DNA of 33,724 nt from Bacteroidota bacterium (GTDB lineage: Bacteria > Bacteroidota > Bacteroidia > J057 > JAJTIE01), in contig JAJTIE010000015.1 in the NCBI GenBank assembly GCA_021300195.1, forward strand, positions 1 to 33,724. Direction: 5' to 3'. Below the pieces are notes generated by a model. That model did not search any database. It was not told the origin of the DNA and saw only the letters and a list, made by a program, of their open reading frames with translations. Below are positions 6,004-26,318 of this stretch, one piece after another (within the stretch, counting starts at the first letter, position 1; each line of letters starts with the position of its first letter). A program made the position numbers and the translations under genes.

Positions 6004-6137
6004 TGTAAACGTGTTTCACAAGTTAAAGAAAATTTTCTCGGCGAGGTACCGCCAGGGGATACGCAGTATTGTGCGTGCGCTGCTATATAAGTCGCAACTT
6101 GCAGGCAGAAAACCGGAATAAGTAACATAAAATAGAC

Positions 6138-7097
6138 GTGCCCAAGCTATACCGAGCCCACAGCCGCGAAAAATGGGGACACCTGGCCCTGGTGCTACAG
6201 ACGCTGATCATGGGGCCGGGCTACACCTTTGGCAAATATGCGGCCATGGGCATGCCCGCCGAGGTGCTTACCTGGCTGCGGATGGTGGTGATAACGGCGG
6301 CCCTGGGACTGTTCTTCCTGGCTACGGGTGGGCACCGGAAGATACCCCGCACCCGGCGTTTTTTTCTCTCCGTGCTGGGCCTGTGCCTGGTGGGCAGTAT
6401 TGGCAATATGTATTTTTTTATCCTGGGTGTGCGCTACACCACACCCGCCCAGAGCAGCATCCTGTATGCGCTAACGCCTCTGTGCGTGCTTATGCTATCG
6501 GCCTGGGTGTTACGTGCCGAGCGCTTTACCGGGCGAAAACTGCTGGCAGCCCTGGTGGCCCTGCTGGGTGTGCTTATTGTCATGTATCCGGGGATGATGC
6601 AGGCGGGGCGGGGTAGCGATGAGCTGAAGGGCAACCTGCTGAACCTACTTTCCGTCGCCTGCTGGTCTGTCTTTATCGTCCTGAGCGGCCGGGTGTTTAG
6701 GGCCATTCACCCCCTGCATAGTTCCGCCCTGCTGTGGGCGGCCGGTTTGCTCTGTTTCAGCCCGATTGGTCTGCCTGCCCTGGCTCATTTCGACCTTGCC
6801 ACGGTGCCCCGCACGGCCTGGTATGGCTTTGCCTACATTACCCTGGGCAATGCAGGCCTGAGCTACCTGCTCATTGTGTATGGCATGCAGCTGCTACGCC
6901 CCAGCCAGGTGGCCGTGTACCTGAATGTTCAGCCCATAGCGGCAGCCCTGTACAGCATCCTGCTGGGGGTGGAGGTTGTTACAACCTACCTGGTGGTGGG
7001 GGGGCTGCTCACCATAGCCGGCGTGTATGGCCTAAACCGGGTAAGCGCCCACGAGCGGCGTGTGCATGCCCCGCCTGCTGTGCCGCTAGAGGGATAA
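6138..7097 (+). CDS. EamA/DMT-family transporter
   Basis: This 319-residue integral membrane protein has about ten hydrophobic segments arranged as two EamA repeats (first about residues 15-150, second about 165-305). That is the usual layout of drug/metabolite transporters. Typical features are the early GPGYTFGKYAAMG, the RYTTPAQSSILYALTPL segment in repeat 1 and PSQVAVYLNVQPIAAAL in repeat 2. The substrate cannot be predicted. The first in-frame start after a stop is the GTG at 6138; the next ATG would cut into the first helix. The last 12 bases overlap the convergent membrane-protein gene. Confidence 0.88.
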   Translation: MPKLYRAHSREKWGHLALVLQTLIMGPGYTFGKYAAMGMPAEVLTWLRMVVITAALGLFFLATGGHRKIPRTRRFFLSVLGLCLVGSIGNMYFFILGVRYTTPAQSSILYALTPLCVLMLSAWVLRAERFTGRKLLAALVALLGVLIVMYPGMMQAGRGSDELKGNLLNLLSVACWSVFIVLSGRVFRAIHPLHSSALLWAAGLLCFSPIGLPALAHFDLATVPRTAWYGFAYITLGNAGLSYLLIVYGMQLLRPSQVAVYLNVQPIAAALYSILLGVEVVTTYLVVGGLLTIAGVYGLNRVSAHERRVHAPPAVPLEG

Positions 7098-8189
7098 ATC
7101 GCCTGTCGGTAGGTCTTCTTGTGTGCGCGCTGCTTTACGCGGTACTTGCGTCCAGTAGCACCAGGTGTGCAGCTGGTAGTACAGGGTACCTAGCAGGCCA
7201 CCGCTTAAACCGAGCATGCGGATAAGAATAAATAAGCCCATGAGTTTATTGCTTCCCAAATAGGCTGTGCTCATAAGTAAACTATACAGTGTTGGTAGAA
7301 TAAGTAACACGCTTGCAATGAACACCATTAAGGTTCCAAAGAATACAAACCACTTGTTTTTAGCAATTCGAAGATTACAGCTCAGCCAGCTGCTTCGGAC
7401 ATGCCTGCTAAGCAGGACAAGCTGAATCCCTGCCAGAATAATCCACGGTACAGAAAAGAGTAGGTGCGGCATAAATAGATCATGTACCGCAAATTCTAAT
7501 GCAAAAATTACGGTCATGACACACCCGGTGGCGCTTAATATGGCCGCCCATTTTAGTGCTTTGGGTATTTTTTCGGGTATTTCTGTCGGCGCGAGCAGGG
7601 TATGGATAGCGTGATTGTTGGTTGGTGCTGTACGTACATTCTTTTTTTCCTGTTCAAGCTCATTCCCATGCTTACTATCGGTTTTAGCTGGTACAGGCAG
7701 CTGCTCCTCCGTATCCTTCCGCAGGGCTCGCGTCCAGTAGCGCCAGGTGTGCAGCTGGTAGTATAGGGTGGTAAGCAAGCCCACGGCAATTGCGACTAAC
7801 AACAAAGCAAAAACTCCCCCGATGATTAGCATCATCATGAATGTGCCTAATATGAGTTTAGAGAATATAAAAGCGATTATTATGCTCGCAACGCTGGTCA
7901 ACAGTACTGGAATATTGCCAAAGAGCATAACCCATTTATTCTGCGCAATGCGTGCCAGGGGTTGTAGAAATTTCCAGGCAGCATGCCTGCTCAGGAGAAT
8001 AAGTTGCAGGCTTGCCACCAGCAGAATACCCAGGCCGAAAAGGGTGGTGTGTTTACCGAATAGATCTTCGCCAAAGACAAAGGGTGGTGTGATGAGTATG
8101 GATACAAATGCCCCGAGGGCACTCGCGCGCACGGCATATAGAATGTTTCGTGGGGTCTTGGGCTGCGGGCTTTTCGGGGGTGTATTCAT
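7086..8189 (-). CDS. Membrane protein with an internal duplication
   Basis: This 367-residue protein has eight or so hydrophobic segments. The two halves (about residues 20-165 and 210-355) repeat the same signature in order: a helix ending LQLILLSRHAAW or IQLVLLSRHVRSS, then RIAQNKWVMLFG or RIAKNKWFVFFG, then a helix leading into TTLYYQLHTWRYWT or GTLYYQLHTWCYWT. A hydrophilic, charged linker at about 166-205 joins the halves. I recognise no named family; the layout resembles a doubled four-helix unit. Its base composition is more AT-rich than its neighbours and its 3' end overlaps the EamA gene by 12 bases. Both facts would fit acquisition from elsewhere. Confidence 0.75.
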   Translation of the reverse strand: MNTPPKSPQPKTPRNILYAVRASALGAFVSILITPPFVFGEDLFGKHTTLFGLGILLVASLQLILLSRHAAWKFLQPLARIAQNKWVMLFGNIPVLLTSVASIIIAFIFSKLILGTFMMMLIIGGVFALLLVAIAVGLLTTLYYQLHTWRYWTRALRKDTEEQLPVPAKTDSKHGNELEQEKKNVRTAPTNNHAIHTLLAPTEIPEKIPKALKWAAILSATGCVMTVIFALEFAVHDLFMPHLLFSVPWIILAGIQLVLLSRHVRSSWLSCNLRIAKNKWFVFFGTLMVFIASVLLILPTLYSLLMSTAYLGSNKLMGLFILIRMLGLSGGLLGTLYYQLHTWCYWTQVPRKAARTQEDLPTGDLSL

Positions 8190-8291
8190 GATTACTCACT
8201 AGGTAGGCAAGCTGGATCCAGCAAGAATCGTGCCGGGCTGGTATTGTATAGGCACATTATGTGTGTGGCTTACGCCCCCAGTTAAACTACC

Positions 8292-8299
8292 TACCTTTG
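8292..8299 (+). promoter_or_regulatory. -7 promoter element TACCTTTG (SemiSWEET gene)
   Basis: It is an exact match to the Bacteroidota TAnnTTTG element, 20 bases before the ATG at 8320. No good TTTG -33 element is seen at the expected distance. Its position rules out the longer in-frame start at 8230. Confidence 0.55.
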
Positions 8300-8319
8300 C
8301 CCAACGCAACAGCTGCACC

Positions 8320-8589
8320 ATGCCCTCTCTCGAACCCTACATAGGCTATCTGGCCGCCCTGCTCACCACCCTGGCCTTTGTGCCGCAGGTGCTAAAAACC
8401 TGGCGTACACGCGCCGTGCGAGACCTGTCGCTCAGCATGACGCTGCTTTTTGCCCTGGGGGTGGCGCTGTGGCTGGTGTATGGCCTGCTGCGGCAGGATG
8501 TGCCCATTATTGGGGCAAACATCATCACGCTGGTGCTCGTGCTGGCCCTGCTGGCCATGAAGCTGCGCTGGGGCAGGCGTGGCCGCTAG
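8320..8589 (+). CDS. SemiSWEET sugar transporter (PQ-loop/MtN3 family)
   Basis: This 89-residue protein has three transmembrane helices (about residues 7-24, 38-57 and 62-82), the single triple-helix bundle of bacterial SemiSWEETs, which dimerise to carry small sugars. The PQ motif is at residues 22-23 (LAFVPQVLKTW), followed by the usual basic loop and S-L-S-M segment (TRAVRDLSLSM). Trp51 and Asn67 sit where family members line the sugar site. The start at 8320 is supported by the upstream TACCTTTG element and by the normal family length. The stop codon shares the palindrome CTAG with the convergent fabH gene. Confidence 0.9.
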   Translation: MPSLEPYIGYLAALLTTLAFVPQVLKTWRTRAVRDLSLSMTLLFALGVALWLVYGLLRQDVPIIGANIITLVLVLALLAMKLRWGRRGR

Positions 8590-9749: not shown

Positions 9750-11645
9750 ATGACTAGTAAACGGAAAGCGCGGATTAACTCCCGCACGCGAAAGGAGCCG
9801 AAGCTGATCAACACAGCCGAGCTGTTTCAGCACCCGGTGAAGCGGAAGGTCTATTCCTTTTTGCTGAAGCCTGGCCTGGAAAAGGTGATGGGCATAGAGA
9901 AGCTGAATGCCGCCTACGAGGCCTCCAAGGTGTATATGAAGACACACCAGGTAACCTTTGTAGAAGCTGTTTTTGCGGTATGGGGCATCGAGTATGAAAT
10001 ACCCGAAGAATCGCTGACCAAGCTGCGCGAGCACGAGGGTCCGTTGGTCATTGTCTGCAATCACCCGTTTGGTGGGTTGGAGGCCATTTTCCTTATGATC
10101 CTGGCACACCGCATTCGCCCGGACCGCTACAAGGTGATGGCCAACTTTATGCTACAGATACCCGAGTTGGTAGACAAGTTCATTTTTGTAGACCCTTTTG
10201 AGAATGCCGAGAGCAAGCAGCGCAACATGTCGCCGCTGCGCGAGGTAATGCAGTATCTGAAGGATGGCGGCCTGCTGGGCATCTTTCCGGCGGGCGAGGT
10301 GGCAAGCTTCGACCTGAAGTCCAAGCGGGTGATGGAGCCGGAGTGGAATGCGAACATCTCCAAGATCATCCAGCGCACAGGGGCTGCCGTGGTGCCGGTG
10401 TACTTTCATGGGCACAATAGTTTTCTGTTTCAGATGGCGGGCGTTATCCATGCACGGCTGCGTACCACCCTGCTGGTGCGCGAGTTTGTAAACCCCCGCA
10501 GCAACCGCATTGTACACGCAATGGGCAACCTGATACCGCCCAGCAAGATCCAGTCTTTTGAAAACCCGGACACCCTTACCGCCTACCTGCGGCAGAAGAC
10601 CCTACTGCTGCGTGCCCGTGTAGACCGGGGCGAAAAGCAGCAGCACATCCGCCTGCGGCACCCGCTCCGCCGCCGTAGTGGAAGAGAGCTACAGCCCGTG
10701 GCCCCACCCGTGGATACGGCCATCCTGCGGGATGAGCTGGCCCGCATGCCCGAGTGCGTAATCAGCACGCACCGAAACCTGGATGTGGTAATTTTTGATG
10801 CAGACCAAGCCCCAGGCCTGCTGATGGAGGTGGGCCGCCTGCGCGAGCTTACCTTTCGCTCGGTAGGCGAGGGTACAGGCAAGGCCATTGACCTGGACAA
10901 GCACGACTACTACTACCACCACCTCATCGTGTGGGACCGCGAGGCGGGCAAGATCGTGGGGGGCTACCGCATGGGCGAGGTAGACACCATACTGCGAAAC
11001 CAGGGACCTACAGGCCTGTACATCAACAGCCTCTTCCACGTGGATAGCAAGCTGTTTGACGAAATTGGGCCCTCGCTGGAGTTGGGGCGGTCTTTTGTGG
11101 CCCAGGAGTACCAGCGTAATTTCTATAGCCTTTTCCTGCTTTGGGTGGGCATCGGCAACTTTATTGTACGCAATCCACGCTACAAAAACCTGATAGGCCC
11201 AGTTTCCATTAGCGACGACTACCACGTGGTGAGCAAAAACATGCTGGTCAATTTCCTGCTGGAGCACCACTACCATACCGACCTGAAAGACTACGTGCAG
11301 CCCAAGAAGCCTTTTCAGCAGAAACTAGACTACGAGCCCGCCTTCTACGATATGCTGAATGTGCAGAAGCTGCAGGACGTGCACGAGCTGATAACGGAAG
11401 TGGAAAAGCAGGATAAGGGTGTGCCCATCCTCATCAAGCACTATCTGCGCATGGGCAGCCGGATCCTGGCCTTCAATGTAGACCCCGAGTTTCAGAACTC
11501 GCTGGATGCCCTTACGCTGATAGACCTGACCAAGACCGACCCCAGCCTGCTGACCAAGTATATGGGCGAGGCTGGCTATGCCGCTTTTATGGCCTACCAC
11601 GGCCTACAGCCACCCGGCCCGGCATCTGCGGATGCACCGGTGTAG
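9750..11645 (+). CDS. Bifunctional lipid acyltransferase, OlsF-like (PlsC-type + OlsB/hemolysin-type GNAT)
   Basis: This 631-residue protein has two fused acyltransferase domains. The N-terminal PlsC-like domain (about residues 75-300) shows NHPFGGLEA at 104-112 and FPAGEVAS near 179, as in lysophosphatidate-type O-acyltransferases. The C-terminal domain (about 345-590) is the OlsB/hemolysin-type N-acyltransferase: RLRELTFRSVGEGTG, then YHHLIVWDREAGKIVGGYR, then ELGRSFVAQEYQRN. This order matches OlsF of Flavobacterium and Serratia, which makes ornithine lipids. Glycine-lipid synthesis in Bacteroides uses related separate proteins, so the head-group amino acid is uncertain. The start at 9750 fits the promoter element 20 bases upstream and omits an unlikely N-terminal extension. 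Confidence 0.88.
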   Translation: MTSKRKARINSRTRKEPKLINTAELFQHPVKRKVYSFLLKPGLEKVMGIEKLNAAYEASKVYMKTHQVTFVEAVFAVWGIEYEIPEESLTKLREHEGPLVIVCNHPFGGLEAIFLMILAHRIRPDRYKVMANFMLQIPELVDKFIFVDPFENAESKQRNMSPLREVMQYLKDGGLLGIFPAGEVASFDLKSKRVMEPEWNANISKIIQRTGAAVVPVYFHGHNSFLFQMAGVIHARLRTTLLVREFVNPRSNRIVHAMGNLIPPSKIQSFENPDTLTAYLRQKTLLLRARVDRGEKQQHIRLRHPLRRRSGRELQPVAPPVDTAILRDELARMPECVISTHRNLDVVIFDADQAPGLLMEVGRLRELTFRSVGEGTGKAIDLDKHDYYYHHLIVWDREAGKIVGGYRMGEVDTILRNQGPTGLYINSLFHVDSKLFDEIGPSLELGRSFVAQEYQRNFYSLFLLWVGIGNFIVRNPRYKNLIGPVSISDDYHVVSKNMLVNFLLEHHYHTDLKDYVQPKKPFQQKLDYEPAFYDMLNVQKLQDVHELITEVEKQDKGVPILIKHYLRMGSRILAFNVDPEFQNSLDALTLIDLTKTDPSLLTKYMGEAGYAAFMAYHGLQPPGPASADAPV

Positions 11646-12744: not shown

Positions 12745-13173
12745 ATGCATATGAGAGCGCTAGTCTTATTCTCTGTGGTACTGCTGCTGGCTGGGGCCTA
12801 TGGCTGCCAGAATAACGACGACGACCCCCCACCCAGCAACAGCCAGTTTTTTGCCGATAGCACCGAGGACGCCGGCATCCTGCTGGTGCAGGTATCGCGC
12901 TGGAATGGGGCCAGCCTGCAGAACATTGCCAATGCCTACGTATCGGTGCACAATACCTTTGAGGACGCGAATAGCGACGGTAGGCTACCGCTCTTTTTTG
13001 GCTATACGGCCTCGGATGGCTTCGTAGACTTCAGCTATGTGAACAGGGGCAACTACTACCTGTATACCGAGGTGGTGGAGCCCAATGGTGCCCTGCGTGC
13101 CCAGGTGGACATTGTGCAGGTGCAGAGTGGCCGCGCAGAGCCGAGCGTGAAGCAGGTGATTCATAACTTCTGA
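12745..13173 (+). CDS. Small lipoprotein, carboxypeptidase-regulatory-like fold likely
   Basis: The 142-residue frame starts MHMRALVLFSVVLLLAGAYGC, a lipoprotein signal peptide, so the mature protein begins with Cys followed by QNNDDDPPPSN, an acidic spacer. The remaining domain of about 100 residues is beta-rich, with phrases such as NIANAYVSVHNTFED, SDGFVDFSYVNRGNYYLYTE and LRAQVDIVQVQSG. That pattern matches small transthyretin-like or CarboxypepD_reg-like surface domains (N...AYV...T...G...F...Y.L). The function is unknown. The second ATG at 12751 is an equally possible start. One base separates its stop from xseB, so the two are co-transcribed. Confidence 0.75.
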   Translation: MHMRALVLFSVVLLLAGAYGCQNNDDDPPPSNSQFFADSTEDAGILLVQVSRWNGASLQNIANAYVSVHNTFEDANSDGRLPLFFGYTASDGFVDFSYVNRGNYYLYTEVVEPNGALRAQVDIVQVQSGRAEPSVKQVIHNF

Positions 13174-13174
13174 T

Positions 13175-13390
13175 ATGGCGAAAAAGAACAACGACTTTGA
13201 TTATCCCACTGCCGTAGCCCGGCTGGGCGAGATTTTGCAGAAGATTCAGCAGGATGACACCCCCATCGAGGAGAGTTATCTGCTCTTCAAACAAGGCAAT
13301 GCGCTCATTGAGCAATGCCGTGCGTACCTGGACCAGACAGAGCTGAAGGTGCAGCAGCTGATAGATGGCCGCCTGGCCGACTTTGAGTAG
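13175..13390 (+). CDS. xseB: Exodeoxyribonuclease VII small subunit (XseB)
   Basis: This 71-residue helical protein has the family pattern DYPTAVARLGEILQKIQQ, then PIEESYLLFKQGNALIEQC, then LDQTELKVQQL. XseB binds the large subunit XseA, which degrades single-stranded DNA. The length is normal. xseA usually lies next to xseB but is not in this window; here the partner upstream is an unrelated lipoprotein gene, with stop and start arranged as TGATATG. A hairpin followed by a T-run lies about 40 bases downstream. Confidence 0.92.
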   Translation: MAKKNNDFDYPTAVARLGEILQKIQQDDTPIEESYLLFKQGNALIEQCRAYLDQTELKVQQLIDGRLADFE

Positions 13391-13430
13391 CAGCACGCAG
13401 AAGTTTTTTTTGACGATTTTCTGCAGTCGA

Positions 13431-13454
13431 GCACCCACAAGTGCCCGTTTTTTT
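13431..13454 (+). terminator. Weak intrinsic terminator candidate after xseB
   Basis: A short stem (GCAC / GTGC with a six-base loop) is followed within three bases by seven T. The stem is only four pairs, so termination would be weak. Confidence 0.3.
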
Positions 13455-13509
13455 CGTTCATACGATCTGTGCTTTTACCAGCGAAAGCATATTTGATGTA
13501 CATTTGAGT

Positions 13510-15777
13510 ATGCAGCAAGCGATCCGAACCCTTTCTCGGCCGTGGCTTTGGTGGGTGTGCATGCAGTGCGCCTGCGTGGCCTGTGGCCTGTGGGGGGCTG
13601 CCATGGGGCAGCAGCATGATTTTCATACGTATCCCCCGCTGCAGAGCCGGGCACCCATCCCGCAGAACTTTCTGCGGCCCACTGTGCCTCCACTGCCCGA
13701 CCCGGAGGCGACTAATGGGCAGGACAGCCTGCAGCAGGGAAGCCTGACACCCACGGATAACCATAGCCTGCTGGCAGAGATCAAGAGCAGCGGAGCCGTC
13801 CTGTTAAACGACCCCATTGCCCAGTATATTGGCCGCGTGGCCGATTTTATCCTGCGAGACGACCGCGCGCTGCGGAGCCGCCTCCGTTTTTATGTGGTAA
13901 AAAGTCCCGCCGTCAATGCCTTTACCACGCTTGAGGGAGATGTATTCCTGACGGTTGGGCTTTTCTGCCAACTGGAGACAGAGGCGGAGCTGGCCTACAT
14001 CCTGTGCCGGGAGTTTGCCAACTATGAGCTACAGCACGCCTGGAACAACTATAGCCAGCGCCTAACCCTGGGCGCTAACCAGGCCGAGCTGCAAAAGCCC
14101 CCACTGGAGGCACGTGTGTTCGACCATAGCCTGTATACTGCCGAGCAGGCCGCCGCCGCAGATGTGTATGGCTTCCAGTACTACAAGGACACGAAGTACC
14201 ACATGTTTGCCCCCAACTTTGTGTTCGACTATCTTCTGTACGCGCGCTATCCCTACGACGATATGTTCTTTGTAGCAGATCGCCTGCAAACAGATTATCT
14301 CCTTTTCCCCGCCGATTATGTCCTGCCCAAAACCCGCGGCATAACCGAGGAAGAGATATTTGACAACGAGCGCCTAAGCCCCCACCCAAACATCCTGCGC
14401 CGCCGGGCAGAGGTAAACCAGCTGGCGGGCCCCCTCTTTGGCCAGGGCACCCAGTGGTTTCAGGTAAGCGAGGAGGATTTTGCTGCCTGCCACCAGCTGT
14501 GCCGTTTTGAGCAGATACGCCTGCGCCTGCTGCAGCGCCAGTATGTGGCAGCCCTGTACGACACCTACATGCTGGAGTTCTTCTATCCCAACAATCTTTA
14601 CCTCACCAAAGCTCGGGTGAAGGCACTGTACGCCCTGGCACAGTACGCCAACGCCAACCAGAAGTATGTGGTGCTGCCCGACTGGAAGCAGCAAGAGGGC
14701 TACTGGCAGCGGCTACACCACCTGCTGTACCGGATGAGCCCGGGCGAACTAACCGGTGTAGCCTGCATCCATGCGTGGAATGCTCGAAAGGAATTTCCGC
14801 AGGACGAGGAACTGGCCGGGCTGAGCGATGCCCTGCTGAAGTCTCTGGTTAGTCAGCACATTCTTAGCCTGAATGAACTGTATGACCAGCCCGCCGCCCC
14901 CGAGGACCTGAGTGCTAACGCGGCACCCCGTGCCACTACCATAGACGGCATTACCTACACGAGCCCAAAAGTGCGCCAGAGCAGCTTTGTCCGATACGCT
15001 TTTGTAGACCTGAAGAAGGACCCTGCTTTTGTGGAAAGATTTGAGTTTTTCCGCCGAAACAGCGATTGGGTAGAGGTGCGCCTGGCAGAAGTATCCGGAT
15101 ATTCTGACCCGAACCAGGAAAAGCAGGCAAAAGAAGAGAAGGTGGAGCAGAGCCCGGAAGTGCGGCAGGCCGAGACAACGGCACGCATTGACCGCATCCT
15201 GCTAAATGAGCCGGAGTACCTGGTAGTGGATAAGCGCATAGAGGGCCAGCAGCAGCTGGCTACGGATGTGGCCGGCACAAGCACCGTGTGCAAGATACTG
15301 GCCGATACCACGGGGCAGGGCCCCATTGCCACCGCCGTGCTAGCCCCGAGCCTGTTTGAGGCAAATATGGCGACAGCCTATAATGACCTGAGCTACCTGA
15401 ATGAGTGGCTGGCCGAGCGGCAACAGCACCGGGGGGTAGAACTACTGCCCATGGACCCCGGGCGTTCACCCGAGATACAGGCCCGATACGGAACCGATTA
15501 TGTGGGGCACACCCGTGTGCTGCGCACGGTGGAGCGGCGCCAGAACAAGGGGGCCGTGCTGGCCGCCACCATCGTGGCCCTGCCTGCCCTGCCCTATGGC
15601 CTGTACTACAATGCTACACCCGACTATAACACCTCCTTCTCTACCGAGCTATATAACCTCTCTACCGGTCAGCTGGTGTATCAGGGCTACCATGTACGCA
15701 AGGCAAAAGACAAGCAAAGCACCCTGGAGAAGGCGATAGCGCGAGAACTGGAGGCTATAAACAAGCTGGAAAAGTAG
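13510..15777 (+). CDS. M48-type metalloprotease homologue with degenerate active site
   Basis: From the ATG at 13510 the protein has 755 residues with a signal peptide ending near GAAMGQQ. Residues about 95-325 follow the M48 peptidase fold: RLRFYVVKSPAVNAFTTLEG, then DVFLTVGLFCQLETEAELAY, and later LSPHPNILRRRAEV, which corresponds to the THPS...R motif. Where active members have HExxH, this has REFAN (about residues 167-171) before YELQH. The later E-x-x-A-D zinc ligand is A-A-A-A-D. All three zinc ligands are therefore absent, and protease activity is unlikely. The C-terminal 400 residues are of unknown function, with possible helical repeats at about 340-460. The protein is probably periplasmic. 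Confidence 0.8.
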   Translation: MQQAIRTLSRPWLWWVCMQCACVACGLWGAAMGQQHDFHTYPPLQSRAPIPQNFLRPTVPPLPDPEATNGQDSLQQGSLTPTDNHSLLAEIKSSGAVLLNDPIAQYIGRVADFILRDDRALRSRLRFYVVKSPAVNAFTTLEGDVFLTVGLFCQLETEAELAYILCREFANYELQHAWNNYSQRLTLGANQAELQKPPLEARVFDHSLYTAEQAAAADVYGFQYYKDTKYHMFAPNFVFDYLLYARYPYDDMFFVADRLQTDYLLFPADYVLPKTRGITEEEIFDNERLSPHPNILRRRAEVNQLAGPLFGQGTQWFQVSEEDFAACHQLCRFEQIRLRLLQRQYVAALYDTYMLEFFYPNNLYLTKARVKALYALAQYANANQKYVVLPDWKQQEGYWQRLHHLLYRMSPGELTGVACIHAWNARKEFPQDEELAGLSDALLKSLVSQHILSLNELYDQPAAPEDLSANAAPRATTIDGITYTSPKVRQSSFVRYAFVDLKKDPAFVERFEFFRRNSDWVEVRLAEVSGYSDPNQEKQAKEEKVEQSPEVRQAETTARIDRILLNEPEYLVVDKRIEGQQQLATDVAGTSTVCKILADTTGQGPIATAVLAPSLFEANMATAYNDLSYLNEWLAERQQHRGVELLPMDPGRSPEIQARYGTDYVGHTRVLRTVERRQNKGAVLAATIVALPALPYGLYYNATPDYNTSFSTELYNLSTGQLVYQGYHVRKAKDKQSTLEKAIARELEAINKLEK

Positions 15778-15805
15778 GCTTTATACTCCGCCCCTTACGG
15801 TCTTC

Positions 15806-16450
15806 ATGCAACTGCAGTCTTTTACCTTCAACATGTTTATGGAGAACACCTACCTGCTGTGGGATGAGGCGGGTGTGTGCGCCATTGTAGATCCCGGTTG
15901 CCTTTTCGAGCGGGAGCAGATGGTGCTGCAAGACTACATAAATCAGCATGGGCTACAGCCTACCTATCTGCTCAATACGCATTGCCATCTGGACCATGTG
16001 TTTGGCAATGCGTGGGCGGAGCGTACCTATGGCCTTAGGCCCTGGATACACGAGCAGGAGCAGGGTATTTTGCAGCGCCTGCCCGCTACAGCCGCCCACT
16101 GGGGGATAGACGGGGTAGAGGCCAGCCCACCCCCTGCGGGGCTGCTCCGGGCGGGTAGTACTTTTGGTGTAGGTAGCCTGGAGCTGGAGGTACGCTGGGC
16201 ACCCGGGCATTCGCCGGGATCGGTGCTTTTGTATCATGCTGAGTCGGGGCAGGCGCTGGTGGGCGACGTCATTTTTCAGCAGAGCATCGGACGCACAGAC
16301 CTACCTGGTGGTAGCCACGCACAGCTGATTGAGAGTATTCACAAGCAGGTGCTAAGTATGCCCGATGCCACCCGCCTGTACCCAGGCCATGGCCCAGATA
16401 CTACTGTAGGCCACGAGCGGGTGCACAACCCCTTTCTGATATCGAACTAA
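15806..16450 (+). CDS. MBL-fold hydrolase, glyoxalase II-like
   Basis: This 214-residue protein has the metallo-beta-lactamase fold of the glyoxalase II/YcbL group. The metal motif is THCHLDH at residues 58-64, with a later His in APGHSPGSV, an Asp in VGDVIFQQSIGR and a final His in YPGHGPDTTVGHE. The length and the compact C-terminus match small single-domain thioesterase-like members. The natural substrate, perhaps a glutathione- or bacillithiol-type thioester, cannot be decided from sequence. It starts 28 bases after the degenerate M48 gene and may be in the same transcript. Confidence 0.9.
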   Translation: MQLQSFTFNMFMENTYLLWDEAGVCAIVDPGCLFEREQMVLQDYINQHGLQPTYLLNTHCHLDHVFGNAWAERTYGLRPWIHEQEQGILQRLPATAAHWGIDGVEASPPPAGLLRAGSTFGVGSLELEVRWAPGHSPGSVLLYHAESGQALVGDVIFQQSIGRTDLPGGSHAQLIESIHKQVLSMPDATRLYPGHGPDTTVGHERVHNPFLISN

Positions 16451-16543
16451 GGTTTGTTGCCTATCTTGGTCAACCTTTTCATTGTGCTTTGCGCTATAAG
16501 GATCTATCGGAACCCCTAGTAATACTGTACATACTCTTGCCGG

Positions 16544-16960
16544 ATGCGTATATTGTTTGAGAACGAGCAGTTTGCCTGCTTGCTGGATGAAGAGATCCCC
16601 TGCGTAATGGTTCAGTACCGCAGTTTTCAGACTGTGGGAGAGATGGAGGCGAATGTAGACCGTGCCTCAGACTACTATGATGCGCTGCAGGACGTTTATC
16701 ATCCGCTGTACTGGCTTAGCGATAACCGAGACCAGCTAGAGTTGGACCCCGAGGTGATCCATTGGGCCAACGAAACCTGGCTGCCCCGTATGGTTCAGCT
16801 TGGGCTGAGCCGCATAGCACTGGTGTATCGGCGGCAGACAATGGCCGCCCTATCGCTCGATGAGTTTTCGAAGAACGCGATGCTCGACTTTCCGGGGGGG
16901 CGGCTGGAGGTAGCCTATTTTGCCAGCCTGGAGGATGCCCGGGAGTGGCTAGCCGGCTAG
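16544..16960 (+). CDS. Small cytosolic protein, possibly STAS/SpoIIAA-like
   Basis: This 138-residue soluble protein shows alternating strand and helix: FENEQFACLLDEEIPCVMVQY, then a helix around VDRASDYYDALQ, then YWLSDNRDQLELDPE, a helix WANETWLPRMVQLG, and IALVYRRQ. It ends LEVAYFASLEDAREWLAG. The final aspect, a strand, F-x-x-L-E-D-A and W-L, is common in STAS or SpoIIAA-like proteins of Bacteroidota. I am not sure of the family. Its last 12 bases overlap the convergent dehydrogenase gene in a perfect palindrome. Confidence 0.65.
   Translation: MRILFENEQFACLLDEEIPCVMVQYRSFQTVGEMEANVDRASDYYDALQDVYHPLYWLSDNRDQLELDPEVIHWANETWLPRMVQLGLSRIALVYRRQTMAALSLDEFSKNAMLDFPGGRLEVAYFASLEDAREWLAG
16949..16960. 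repeat. Perfect 12-bp palindrome CTAGCCGGCTAG at two overlapping stops
   Basis: Read on either strand, it is Leu-Ala-Gly-stop. It forms the last four codons of the convergent genes on both sides. Confidence 0.9.
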
Positions 16961-17890
16961 TTGCAGTTTCTTCATGTTTTCCAGCATGTCCGCCACCATG
17001 CGGTCCAGGTTGTACTCGTGCTGCCAGCCCCAGTCGGCCCGTGCGGCACTGTCGTCTATGCTCTGGGGCCAGCTGCTGGCTATCGCTTGCCTAAAGTCTG
17101 GCGCATAATCGATTTGGAACTCGGGTATATGGGCCTTTATAGCCGCGGCAATCTCAGCCGGGGTGAAGCTGATAGCAGCCAGGTTATAGCTTTGGCGCAC
17201 CCGTATAGCTTCGGCGGGGGCTTCCATCAGCTGTAGGGTAGCCCGTACGGCATCGGGCATGTACATCATCGGCAGGCGGCTATCGGCAGCCAGAAAGCTG
17301 GTGTAGGCAGCCCGTGCCAGCGCCTCGTAGAAGATGTGCACGGCATAGTCTGTAGTGCCGCCACCGGGCTGCACCTTGTAGCTAATGAGGCCCGGGTAGC
17401 GCAGGCTGCGTACATCCAGGCCATGCTTGCGGTGGTACCAGGCACACAGGCCCTCGCCTGCCTGCTTGGATATGCCGTAGATGGTGGCTGGCTCCATCAC
17501 CGTATGCTGGGGCGTAGCCGTGCTGGGGCTGCTGGGGCCGAAAACGGCGATGGAAGAGGGCCAAAACACTTTTTGGATTTGGTGCTTAACGCTCAGGTCC
17601 AGCACGTTCATCAGGCCATTCATATTCACCCTCCAGGCCAGGGCGGGCTGCTCCTCCCCCTTGGCAGACAGAAAGGCTGCCAGCAGGTAGATCTGCGAAA
17701 CCCCGTGCTGCCGGATAATGACCTCCAGGTTTTCCCGGTCTGTTACATCCAGCTGTACCTGGGTATAGGGTGTCTGTATGGGCTGCAGGTCTGCCGCTAC
17801 CACCTGTGTATCGCCATACTGGGCAGCCAGTGCAGGCAGCAGCTCCAGGCCTAGCTGGCCTCCGGCGCCTATTACGAGGATTTTTGACAT
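16949..17890 (-). CDS. NAD-dependent L-threonine 3-dehydrogenase, short-chain (epimerase-like) type
   Basis: From the ATG at 17890 the protein has 313 residues. The Rossmann motif GAGGQLG is at residues 8-14, the catalytic Tyr138 and Lys142 are in IYGISKQAGE, and a Ser pair lies in WPSSIAVFGP. The phrases LLAAFLSAKGEEQP, NMNGLMNVLDLSVK and YPGLISYKVQPGGGTTDYA are those of the extended-SDR threonine dehydrogenases known from Flavobacterium and Cytophaga relatives, which oxidise threonine to 2-amino-3-ketobutyrate. The start is set by the first ATG with a TACCTTTG element 30 bases upstream; an in-frame start at 17923 would lie on that element. No kbl (2-amino-3-ketobutyrate ligase) gene is near. 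Confidence 0.9.
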   Translation of the reverse strand: MSKILVIGAGGQLGLELLPALAAQYGDTQVVAADLQPIQTPYTQVQLDVTDRENLEVIIRQHGVSQIYLLAAFLSAKGEEQPALAWRVNMNGLMNVLDLSVKHQIQKVFWPSSIAVFGPSSPSTATPQHTVMEPATIYGISKQAGEGLCAWYHRKHGLDVRSLRYPGLISYKVQPGGGTTDYAVHIFYEALARAAYTSFLAADSRLPMMYMPDAVRATLQLMEAPAEAIRVRQSYNLAAISFTPAEIAAAIKAHIPEFQIDYAPDFRQAIASSWPQSIDDSAARADWGWQHEYNLDRMVADMLENMKKLQLAG

Positions 17891-22615: not shown

Positions 22616-23173
22616 ATGGCTAGCGAAAAACCCCCCATCCTCATCGTAGAAGACGAGCCCACCTGGGCTGCCACCCTGACGGCCAAGCTCGGAAAACGCT
22701 TTTCGGTGCACCACTTTACCCGGGGCGAAGACTGCCTGGCCAAACTGAAAGAGATAAAGCCCGTGCTGGTGATACTGGACTACCACCTGGAGGGGCAGCT
22801 AACCGGCCTGGATACCCTGAAGGAGGTGCGCAAACAGAAGCCCGACCTGAAGGTAATCCTATTCTCGGCCCAGGACGATGTGCAGACTGCCATGGACATA
22901 CTAGATAATGGTGCCTACGAGTACATTGTGAAGGGCGAGAATGCCATGAACCGCCTGAACATTGTGCTGCGAAACATAGAGGAGGCAGACCGGCTGAAGC
23001 GCGAGGTAGTAGAACTCAAGCTGCGTTTTCGCCGCGAGAAGCTGGTGCTGATCCTGGTAATTGTAGGCATAGCCATAGGTAGCTTCCTTGTGTACCTAAA
23101 CACCTGCCCCCAGCAGCGCGTAGTGAACTGGGACCCCTTCGGCCTGGAAGAAACCCGGGCCTGCAATCCCTGA
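22616..23173 (+). CDS. Receiver-domain protein with a C-terminal membrane helix
   Basis: This 185-residue protein has a complete CheY-like receiver (about residues 6-122): acidic pocket Glu12 and Asp13, phospho-acceptor Asp55 in VILDYHLEG, Ser84 in LFSAQDD and Lys106 in YIVKGEN. A charged helix (DRLKREVVELKLRFRREK) leads to a single transmembrane segment at about 142-161 (LVLILVIVGIAIGSFLVYL). A short tail of about 24 residues follows. No DNA-binding or enzymatic output domain is present. It lies 83 bases after the Mla ATPase gene on the same strand; whether it controls that transporter is unknown. The start ATG at 22616 gives the normal receiver N-terminus. Confidence 0.88.
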   Translation: MASEKPPILIVEDEPTWAATLTAKLGKRFSVHHFTRGEDCLAKLKEIKPVLVILDYHLEGQLTGLDTLKEVRKQKPDLKVILFSAQDDVQTAMDILDNGAYEYIVKGENAMNRLNIVLRNIEEADRLKREVVELKLRFRREKLVLILVIVGIAIGSFLVYLNTCPQQRVVNWDPFGLEETRACNP

Positions 23174-23233
23174 TTCGTTCTTAGCCCCAGGTTCTGCTAG
23201 TCAGCCAGTCAGCCCACTGCGCTGCGCACCTAC

Positions 23234-23336
23234 TACTCAGCGGAGTGCTTTTCCAGCAGCTTCAGGCACACGGCCAGGTTTGGGCTGTGGGGGGCCTGTA
23301 TGCGCAGGTCGTCTCCGGTGCGGGGGTGCACCAGGC
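23234..23336. repeat. Left 103-bp direct repeat (remnant 3' end of RluA-type gene)
   Basis: It is identical to 25561-25663 except for one base. Read on the minus strand, it is the last 33-34 codons of the pseudouridine synthase, in frame up to a TAG stop just beyond its left end at 23233-23235. To its right the synthase sequence breaks off, so it is a dead fragment. Confidence 0.95.
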
Positions 23337-23364
23337 AATAACTGAATTGAATAACTAAACTAAT

Positions 23365-23477
23365 ATGAGTATCTTGCGGCTAATCACAGAGGCTTGCAGT
23401 AGCGCAAAACGTTCGTCATGAAGCCTAGCTGCAAAAATTCGTATTCTAAGAAGTTACTATTCGCAAAAAACCAATGA
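23365..23477 (+). other. Two tiny ATGA-linked frames ahead of the DUF262 gene
   Basis: An 18-codon frame (23365-23421) ends in TCATGA, and the next ATG (23418) starts a 19-codon frame whose stop (23475-23477) overlaps the ATG of the large gene (23474) in the same way. They could be leader peptides coupled to the main gene, or chance. Their encoded peptides (MSILRLITEACSSAKRSS and MKPSCKNSYSKKLLFAKNQ) have no recognisable family. Confidence 0.3.
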
Positions 23478-25531
23478 AAGCGGTAGAAACAAAAGTAGAG
23501 GAGTTTATCTCCAAGGCTAGGACTCAGTTCGTAATTCCTGTATACCAAAGAAACTACGACTGGTCCATTCAAGACTGCCGGCAATTATTTAACGACATTA
23601 TTAGTGCAGGGAAGAACAAAGATGTGTCTGCTCATTTTATTGGTAGCATCGTCTTTTTACATAATGATGTGTATACTCATTCGCAGATAACGAAACTTAC
23701 GATAATAGATGGTCAACAACGACTAACAACACTTACTCTTATCTACTTAGCCCTACGTCATCTTTTTAAGGATCTAAAAAAAGAGGAAAACATTCAAGAA
23801 ATAGACGAGACCTATTTGATAAATAAATTTGATAAAAATCCACAAGGAAAATTTAAATTAAAAGTTACCAAAAACAACGAACAATTTTTTAAGTATATCT
23901 ATGATTGTCGGGAATCAGAGCTTATCGGATACTCTAATTTTGTTAATAATTTTAAGTATTTTAGAAAGAACATAACAGAAGATAATTACAATGATGTTAG
24001 AAGAGGTCTTTCTAAGCTCATGTTTGTTGAGATTTCTTTAGAAAGAGGAAAAGATGATCCACAGAGAATTTTTGAGAGTTTAAACTCCACGGGATTGGCA
24101 TTGTCTCAGGCAGACCTTATAAGAAATTATATCTTGATGGAACTAAGTAGTCAAGATCAAGAAGTGATCTATGAAGAATTTTGGTTTCAAATAGAGGAGT
24201 CAGCTAGGAATGAGAAAAGAAATGAGAATTTAGTATCTGACTACATTCGAGACTATCTAACGCTAATAAACAGAAGAATACCCAACAAGAAAAATGTATA
24301 TGAAGAATTTAAACAAAAATATAAGGCCACTTCAATAGAGAAACTGAAGGAAGATTTATCAGATATAAAAAAACTGAGCAAACACTTTAATAAGCTGGTA
24401 AATCCGCATAAAGAAGAAGACAAGGAAATCAGGTTACGATTGATTTCTATAAAGCGACTAGAGGTAAATGTTGCATTTCCATTTTTAATGAAAGTATATG
24501 ATGACTATAGCAACCAGATAATTGATAAGCAGGTTTTACTAGAAATCTTTGATTTCATTGAGTCATTCATTGTAAGAAGATTCATCGTTTCTCTTCCAAC
24601 CAATGCTTTAAATAAAATATTTATGAACTTACACGAAAAAATAGATTCAGATGACTACTTAGCATCAATTCAACGGCATTTAATAAGTCGATCGGGCAAT
24701 CATAGATTTCCAGATGATGGTGAAGTTATAGATGCATTGAAATCGAAGGATATTTATAATTCTAAACAAATTAAGTTCTATTTATTAGAAAAACTTGAAA
24801 ATCACGAAAACAAAGAATTTGTTAAAATTGAAGACAACTCAGACATTACTATTGAACATATTTTTCCTCAAAATCCTGATAGCTCATGGCGTGATGATCT
24901 GGATGATGAGGAGTTTGAATTTATGAAGAAGCGACAGCACACAATCTCAAATCTTACTTTATCAGGCAACAACGGGAAGCTGGGTAATAAATCATTCAAG
25001 GAAAAGAGAGACCTGAATGGCTTAGGATATAGCGACAGTCGTCTTTGGATGAACAAGCATCTCTCCAAATTAGAGAGATGGGGTAAGGATGAGCTTGAAA
25101 AGCGTTTTGATATTATACGCGATCGTTTCCTAGAAATATGGAAATACCCTGATCTAAAATTAGGTGCGAAGCACTTGTCAGGAGTTAATGAAGAAATCAG
25201 TATATTTGACGCAGATGACCCTACTAATCAAAAGCTAGAATATGTTGTTTTTTTAAGCAATCGGATAGAAGTTACAAAGATAACCGATCTTTATAAAGCG
25301 GTATTTGAGAGGCTCTTTCTGGATCATCCTGAATCTTTCTTTACTAATTCATTCCGAACTAAGTTTGGTATTAGCCATGATTCTATCGGCTTGAGAATGC
25401 CTTATTCTATCAGCGATAACTGCTTTATTGAGGTGAACCTTTCCAGTTCTGAGAAATTCAAAAAAATAAAAGCTGCGCTTACTTTTTTTGAGTTAGAAGA
25501 TGAACTGACAATAAAATACGCAGATAGCTAG
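23474..25531 (+). CDS. DUF262-DUF1524 (GmrSD-like) protein, probable modification-dependent nuclease
   Basis: This 685-residue protein has the DUF262 (GmrS-type) N-terminal domain: IPVYQRNYDW at residues 21-30, the nucleotide-site motif IDGQQRLTTL at 78-87 and FESLNSTGLALSQADLI at about 200-216. A helical linker follows. The DUF1524 (GmrD, His-Me finger nuclease) domain shows TIEHIFPQNP around 459-468 and LSGNNGKLGNKSF ending at 508, then KRD. The last 80 or so residues form an extra domain of the DUF5655 kind, which often caps such proteins. Relatives restrict DNA carrying modified bases, usually as phage defence. The gene is AT-rich, uses A/T-ending codons unlike its neighbours, and is alone on an islet. 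Confidence 0.92.
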   Translation: MKAVETKVEEFISKARTQFVIPVYQRNYDWSIQDCRQLFNDIISAGKNKDVSAHFIGSIVFLHNDVYTHSQITKLTIIDGQQRLTTLTLIYLALRHLFKDLKKEENIQEIDETYLINKFDKNPQGKFKLKVTKNNEQFFKYIYDCRESELIGYSNFVNNFKYFRKNITEDNYNDVRRGLSKLMFVEISLERGKDDPQRIFESLNSTGLALSQADLIRNYILMELSSQDQEVIYEEFWFQIEESARNEKRNENLVSDYIRDYLTLINRRIPNKKNVYEEFKQKYKATSIEKLKEDLSDIKKLSKHFNKLVNPHKEEDKEIRLRLISIKRLEVNVAFPFLMKVYDDYSNQIIDKQVLLEIFDFIESFIVRRFIVSLPTNALNKIFMNLHEKIDSDDYLASIQRHLISRSGNHRFPDDGEVIDALKSKDIYNSKQIKFYLLEKLENHENKEFVKIEDNSDITIEHIFPQNPDSSWRDDLDDEEFEFMKKRQHTISNLTLSGNNGKLGNKSFKEKRDLNGLGYSDSRLWMNKHLSKLERWGKDELEKRFDIIRDRFLEIWKYPDLKLGAKHLSGVNEEISIFDADDPTNQKLEYVVFLSNRIEVTKITDLYKAVFERLFLDHPESFFTNSFRTKFGISHDSIGLRMPYSISDNCFIEVNLSSSEKFKKIKAALTFFELEDELTIKYADS

Positions 25532-25559
25532 CTTAGCGGGCAAAGCCTATTCCTCTTAC

Positions 25560-26318
25560 TTACTCAGCGGAGTGCTTTTCCAGCAGCTTCAGGCACACGG
25601 CCAGGTTTGGGCTGTGGGGGGCCTGTATACGCAGGTCGTCTCCGGTGCGGGGGTGCACCAGGCCCAGGCGCCAGGCGTGCAGCACATACTCGGTGTTTAT
25701 AGGCCAGGCTTCTTCCTCGGGCTTGTGGCGGTAGCCGCGCCGGATCAGCTCGCGGGTATACAGGTCGGTACCCCCATAGGCCGTGTCGCCCACAATGGGG
25801 CAGTGGATGCTGGCCAGGTGGATGCGGATCTGGTGCATGCGGCCCGTTACAGGCTCGGCCCGCAGCAGGGTAGCCTGCTGGTATAGCTTCTCGGTATAGA
25901 AGACGGTGAGGGCTGGCTTTCCTGCCCAGGCATCTATTTTCACCAGCCCGCGCTTGGCCGGGGCTATGGGGGCTTCCACCTCAAAGCCGTCAAACTCCCA
26001 TTGCCCCTTTACCAGGGCCAGGTAGGCCTTGTATACCCCCCGCTGCTGAAACTGGCGGCTCAGGTGGCTGTAGCTCTCGGCATGCTTGGCAAATACCAGC
26101 ACGCCCGTGGTCATCTTGTCTAGCCGGTGCACGGCCTTCAGGTCGGGGTTGTGCTGCTGGGCTATCTCTTCCAGGCTGCGCTGCGGGCTGGAGCGGCCGG
26201 GGGTGCTGGCTATACCCTGTGGCTTGTTCACCACCAGCAGGTCGTCATCCTCGTGCAGGATGAGGTCTGGCCACTTCCATTTGGCAAGCCGCCTCAGTCG
26301 TATATCCCGATCTTCCAT
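25560..26318 (-). CDS. RluA-family pseudouridine synthase (23S rRNA/tRNA)
   Basis: This 252-residue enzyme converts uridines to pseudouridine in rRNA or tRNA. It lacks an S4 domain. The start of the catalytic domain is DLLVVNKPQGIASTPGR, and the catalytic Asp67 sits in HRLDKMTTGVLVFAK. The motif QIRIHLASIHCPIVGDTAYG follows. The ATG at 26318 lies within the last codons of the upstream YgjP-type gene (25-base overlap), so translation is likely coupled. The last 34 codons are duplicated at 23234-23336 because an islet sits at its 3' end; the reading frame is nonetheless complete. The exact target nucleotide is unknown. Confidence 0.93.
   Translation of the reverse strand: MEDRDIRLRRLAKWKWPDLILHEDDDLLVVNKPQGIASTPGRSSPQRSLEEIAQQHNPDLKAVHRLDKMTTGVLVFAKHAESYSHLSRQFQQRGVYKAYLALVKGQWEFDGFEVEAPIAPAKRGLVKIDAWAGKPALTVFYTEKLYQQATLLRAEPVTGRMHQIRIHLASIHCPIVGDTAYGGTDLYTRELIRRGYRHKPEEEAWPINTEYVLHAWRLGLVHPRTGDDLRIQAPHSPNLAVCLKLLEKHSAE
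25561..25663. repeat. Right 103-bp direct repeat (functional 3' end of RluA-type gene)
   Basis: It is the partner of 23234-23336 with 102/103 identity. The difference (plus-strand A at 25629 against G at 23302) changes an Arg codon from CGC to CGT and is silent. Confidence 0.95.

Follow-up and report, generated by a model that had tools for sequence, protein, structure and literature searches.

A GmrSD-type gene inserted at the duplicated 3' end of an rluA-family gene in a Bacteroidota bacterium

The rluA-family locus

The stretch of DNA analysed here, termed the window, comprises 33,724 nucleotides and corresponds to contig G000:C15 of a draft genome of 2.67 Mb (71 contigs, 58% G+C) from a Bacteroidota bacterium. 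An AT-rich islet of ~2.2 kb is situated in it between a response-regulator gene and a gene for an RluA-family pseudouridine synthase. The features of the locus are as follows.

22616-23173, + strand: response-regulator gene (PF00072), the native left neighbour, convergent with the rluA-family gene
23234-23336, − strand: left repeat copy, the native rluA-family 3' end in its displaced position (34 codons and stop), adjoining native intergenic sequence
23337-25560, no strand: inserted AT-rich segment (~34% G+C), with a sharp inner junction at 23336/23337
23474-25531, + strand: intact GmrSD-type gene (DUF262 and DUF1524), 685 aa (Pfam PF03235, 3.5e-35; PF07510, 1.5e-20)
25561-25663, − strand: right repeat copy, belonging to the working rluA-family gene as its 3' end, with TAA at 25560-25562
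25560-26318, − strand: RluA-family pseudouridine synthase gene, 252 aa, the target of insertion (PF00849, PseudoU_synth_2, 3.6e-30; TIGR00005 above cut-off)

The initial annotation placed an AT-rich segment with one GmrSD-like gene exactly at the 3' end of the pseudouridine synthase gene. Its coordinates and description are exact, and the segment has the anatomy of an insertion at this 3' end. The claim that 103 bp of the target gene occur on both sides likewise agrees with the repeat comparison: the direct repeat occupies 23234-23336 and 25561-25663 with a spacing of 2327, and its copies are identical at 102 of 103 positions. The sole mismatch, at 23302, is a synonymous third codon position, and the exact-match runs are 68 and 34 bp. 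Just two copies of the repeat exist in the searched genome; a 40-bp match on G000:C29 was dismissed as a coincidence with a TPR protein.

The G+C content of the interval is about 32-37%, in contrast to 52-65% on both flanks. The borders of the insert coincide with the repeats when the two are compared, and the outer border is within the stop codon, which is TAG (23233-23235) in the left copy and TAA (25560-25562, one base of it outside the repeat) in the right copy. A distance of 60 bp separates the stop codon of the response-regulator gene from that of the left copy, and an imperfect GGTGC-N6-GCACC inverted repeat is located at the inner border of the islet. Joining of the flanks through one copy (23336 to 25664) yields an intact 252-codon rluA-family gene ending in TAG, a construct that represents a virtual empty site only. 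As the annotation had noted, no recombinase ORF was found between the repeat copies, where the GmrSD gene is the sole substantial ORF, and no tRNA was found in the window. We also note, elsewhere in the window, a 43-bp repeat (7145-7187 and 7727-7769, 93%) within one gene for a 367-aa membrane protein, which is an internal domain duplication.

The GmrSD gene and its relatives

The cargo had been described as a modification-dependent type, and this description holds at the level of sequence, since the GmrS (PF03235) and GmrD (PF07510) domains that characterize GmrSD type IV enzymes, matched as GmrSD_N and GmrSD_C, are present with their conserved motifs. YQRNYDW, IIDGQQR and the HNH-type motif HIFP..N..GNNG are invariant in an alignment of six proteins, namely the window protein and five relatives of 47-57% identity. 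PADLOC places the gene with Orf5/HEC-06/SspE-type models, and the related solved structures (9jfl and 6jiv) are remote only. The protein is likely to be active as a modification-dependent restriction enzyme.

Homologues at E<=1e-30 were detected in 27 of the 395 sampled genomes of the phylum (about 7%), and no second GmrSD was found in the host genome at the same threshold. Among plasmid and phage homologues, identity to the window protein does not exceed 49%, and one scan of viral contigs returned no relative. A long near-identical flanking repeat was present at one of 38 GmrSD loci, a set that includes the window locus and in which the flanks reach <=1.5 kb for most loci. The single case is that of the window itself, which indicates that the repeat belongs to the insertion and not to the GmrSD family.

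The genome collection contains no other species of the same genus. The nearest genome represents another genus of the family; its RluA protein is 55% identical, its neighbouring genes are different, and synteny is absent. Neither an empty site nor a donor genome was found in this collection, which lacks congeneric genomes, and duplicated 3' ends were seen at none of 29 loci of rluA relatives. Beside a GmrSD homologue in another genome (L072, G062:C87), a 101-bp duplication of the ftsW 3' end was observed (11020-11120 and 12873-12973), with a YhcG-type nuclease gene and intergenic repeats of ~90 bp between the copies. This duplication was rejected as a parallel to the GmrSD islet. A sister species (L156) contains both ftsW copies together with a RES-like gene in the GmrSD position, and lacks the YhcG-type nuclease gene, so that the ftsW duplication is older than the cargo. 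Repeats at a further locus (L077) were set aside as paralogous C-terminal domains of secreted proteins.

Duplicated gene ends elsewhere in the genome

The survey covered 2.24 Mb (84%) of the host genome, in stretches, and had three targets: AT-rich segments flanked by repeats, close direct repeats, and duplicated gene ends. Long near-identical flanking repeats of non-paralogous origin were found at two of 88 AT-rich segments, namely the window islet and a segment on G000:C37, and the scan of gene ends added a third islet on G000:C18 as well as older candidates. Comparable non-paralogous pairs amount to only a handful in 2.24 Mb, and on the wrong side of genes the gene-end scan returned nothing as strong, except an antisense echo of the metF pair. 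Taken together, these two observations exclude chance. The loci outside the window are the following; strands are omitted.

L132 (G000:C37), 12890-15144: second islet, a membrane-protein gene at the 5' end of a FAD-linked oxidase gene; repeat of 132-139 bp, 96-97%
L181 (G000:C18), 6083-8367: third islet, a DarTG pair at a type IIG restriction-methylase gene (3' end); repeat of 177-178 bp, 89%
L213 (G000:C30), 15734-17623: older candidate, TetR and SDR (short-chain dehydrogenase) genes downstream of metF; the 120-bp duplicate of the metF 3' end is decayed, 80%
L181 (G000:C18), 9938-11474: older candidate, a secreted-protein gene before a pstS-like gene; copies of ~150 bp, 89%

The anatomy thus recurs within the genome, and the survey suggests three clear cases, including the window, and two older candidates, with duplicates ranging from 99% to 80% identity.

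The cargo of the C37 islet is a gene for a 519-aa membrane protein with 36% G+C and without a Pfam match. The displaced 5' end of the oxidase gene persists as an orphan fragment, while the working oxidase gene begins with a different, AT-rich 5' end (41% versus 54% G+C) that encodes a homologous N-terminus in frame; the N-termini compared are ...FLKPEQCLSDEAALADYSHDWTED and ...ILRPEQMGLEEEVRADYAHDWTED. The DNA identity is ~97% inside the repeat, and outside it the sequences have diverged, yet remain in-frame homologues. The presence of a foreign, homologous but diverged gene 5' end on the cargo side argues that the gene-end sequence came with the cargo. By composition and position, the AT-rich 5' end is the likelier foreign one; the N-termini of relatives are not decisive, with slightly better scores against the islet-side version than against the displaced one. 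The cargo belongs to a family of ~520-aa membrane proteins without a Pfam match, which has four members in the host (G000:C17, 32607-34100; C36, 6441-9436; C37, 13182-14738), three of them in addition to the C37 gene, and is almost absent from the sampled relatives, with one weak match in 395 other genomes.

The C18 islet contains a DarT gene (PF14487, 3e-51) and a DarG gene (PADLOC, 2e-117). Each copy of its repeat ends one base past the stop codon, and a 1311-codon gene is restored when the flanks are joined. The copies differ at 6, 6 and 7 sites by codon position, without an indel. The displaced metF copy carries an 8-bp deletion, and its differences are distributed 6, 5 and 6 by codon position. 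This even distribution at both loci shows that the copies were near-identical at insertion and that one of them decayed neutrally thereafter. At the pstS-like gene the repeat comprises the gene 5' end and its upstream region, and the displaced copy has accumulated indels. The metF and pstS-like loci are probable further cases of greater age.

Several other matches were discarded. A TonB-like 5' fragment on G000:C23, flanked by two paralogous M16 peptidase genes, is better explained by their tandem duplication, a match on G000:C19 reflects tandem S8-type proteases, and those on G000:C12, C49 and C52 are arrays of paralogues. The names M16, S8-type and TonB-like were taken from reading of the sequences and not from a family search. 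Tandem arrays of about ten paralogous genes of ~240 aa, with well-conserved 3' ends, occur at L104 (G000:C12, 1-8000) and L145 (G000:C49, 1-7700).

Origin of the insertion and comparison with known systems

The initial annotation interpreted the islet as an insertion with long target duplication, a type described for restriction units (PMC3874152, PMC3031569, PMC1643837). In the sense of Nobusato and Kobayashi, both copies would derive from the recipient, through a transposition-like or repair process that acts on the islet itself, without a donor gene end. The target duplication of ~100 bp, the matching borders, the absence of a recombinase, and the restriction-type (modification-dependent) insert in the window all fit this description, as do near-identity at insertion and subsequent neutral decay. 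The tie to restriction cargo does not stand for the genome as a whole, where a membrane-protein gene and DarTG occupy other islets and the C37, C30 and pstS-like C18 loci contain non-restriction genes. Such a process also does not explain why, in C37, the side facing the cargo bears a homologous gene end of foreign origin, and a random duplication would seldom place the outer border at the stop codon, as is observed in both clear 3'-end cases. Duplication by the recipient is accordingly a doubtful account, but one that deserves a hearing. Integration by site-specific recombination, the alternative raised in the initial annotation, is unlikely. It would involve a small element bearing its own replacement gene end in attP and a tyrosine recombinase acting in trans, with the repeats as attL and attR. 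Gene 3' ends are classic targets of integrases; the targeting of a gene 3' end, the restoration of that end by the joined flanks, the inverted repeat at the inner border, and three phage-integrase-domain genes in the host genome are in line with it. However, an integrase gene is absent from every islet, the target genes are unrelated and are used at both 5' and 3' ends, and the divergence of the DarTG and metF copies is neutral rather than coding-constrained. The rluA and oxidase repeats, moreover, share no att core beyond that of shuffled sequences (fraction at or above the observed, 0.475).

An assembly or binning artefact is very improbable. The genome is a draft of 71 contigs and the change of composition is sharp, but the two copies differ and their exact runs of 68 and 34 bp are short compared with usual read lengths, which argues against assembly collapse; in addition, joining the flanks gives an in-frame gene, and the same anatomy occurs in decayed form at other loci. 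A local tandem duplication followed by deletion, which does explain the look-alike on C23, can hardly be credited at the rluA locus, where the cargo is single-copy at the E <= 1e-30 threshold and foreign in composition.

We give about an even chance to homology-anchored capture at the rluA-family gene, whose 3' end would have received a foreign AT-rich fragment with the GmrSD gene. The incoming molecule would have borne, beside the cargo, the terminal ~103 bp of this rluA-family gene. The fragment may have circularised, or entered by an equivalent one-ended event, and a single crossover in the short homology would then have kept the 3' end of the working gene intact and placed the cargo immediately after its stop codon, with the native 3' end stranded beyond the insert as an orphan. 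Homology between donor and recipient would have stopped at the outer border, in the stop codon, and the inner border (23336) would be the ligated end of the fragment. Long repeats would be lost through recombination, and short ones would be left. We infer both the donor and the circular or one-ended intermediate.

Homology-anchored capture accounts for six features: target-end repeats of 100-180 bp, a preserved target gene, a stop codon at the outer border of both clear 3'-end islets, the foreign end in C37, near-identity followed by neutral decay, and unrelated targets and cargo without a common core in the two repeats compared. Genes of the comEC and dprA families in the host genome count in its favour. 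No Ku gene was found in the host genome, which counts against it, and end joining would require another route. Also against capture are the need for a donor with ~99% identity over 103 bp followed by the islet directly behind the stop, the scores of relatives' N-termini at C37, the small number of cases, and the failure to find an empty site or a donor in the genomes searched. The interpretation in the initial annotation is partly supported: the islet is of the long-target-duplication type, but it is one of several with varied cargo in this genome, and homology-anchored capture at gene ends is the favoured reading.

By extension, we tentatively propose that the lineage gains genes in a recurrent and cargo-independent manner, in which foreign operons, GmrSD and DarTG among them, would be captured at the ends of housekeeping genes with a short homologous end, the decaying duplicate being a datable scar. 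If true, this would constitute a general recombinase-free route to defence islets that can be read from single genomes, and it touches on the movement of single defence genes that have no visible mobility genes. Duplicates of 99% to 80% identity across three clear and two older cases would make the process datable and searchable, and a neutrally decaying displaced gene end beside a foreign operon is a simple signature that could be scanned for in any genome.

The window protein shares with GmrSD type IV enzymes (PMC4619093, PMC4437046) and with SspE the combination of DUF262 and DUF1524 in one chain and the DGQQR and HNH motifs, and differs in an extra C-terminal region of ~120 aa. As for the insertion, PMC3874152 and PMC3031569, through which Nobusato et al. 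(2000) and Furuta et al. (2010) are cited, describe restriction-type cargo, a target repeat of ~100 bp and no recombinase, all of which the islet has in common with insertion with long target duplication. The islet departs from it in that the cargo is a GmrSD without a methylase, sister islets carry non-restriction genes, and the borders lie at gene ends or stop codons.

Capture of this kind has an experimental precedent. When linear DNA with homology at one end was introduced into E. coli, 56 of the 60 clones examined were insertions flanked by duplications; in the 14 sequenced, the duplications measured 109-950 bp and were explained by trimming, recircularisation and a single crossover (PMC3240628). 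The rluA islet resembles these products in having an insert flanked by a duplication of at least 100 bp of the homologous locus and an inner junction without homology; the E. coli case is a laboratory plasmid system, whereas the rluA islet would be a natural event deduced from sequence. Homology-facilitated illegitimate recombination, together with the orphan ends of Vibrio T6SS arrays and Rhs C-terminal displacement (PMC5361080), shares with the islet the homology anchor at one end and the old gene end left as an orphan. The typical products of that process carry deletions of recipient DNA of similar size, a loss that the intergenic flank of the islet, seen in one genome, may have undergone; in contrast, the rluA target is duplicated, and its gene is intact and unrelated to the cargo.
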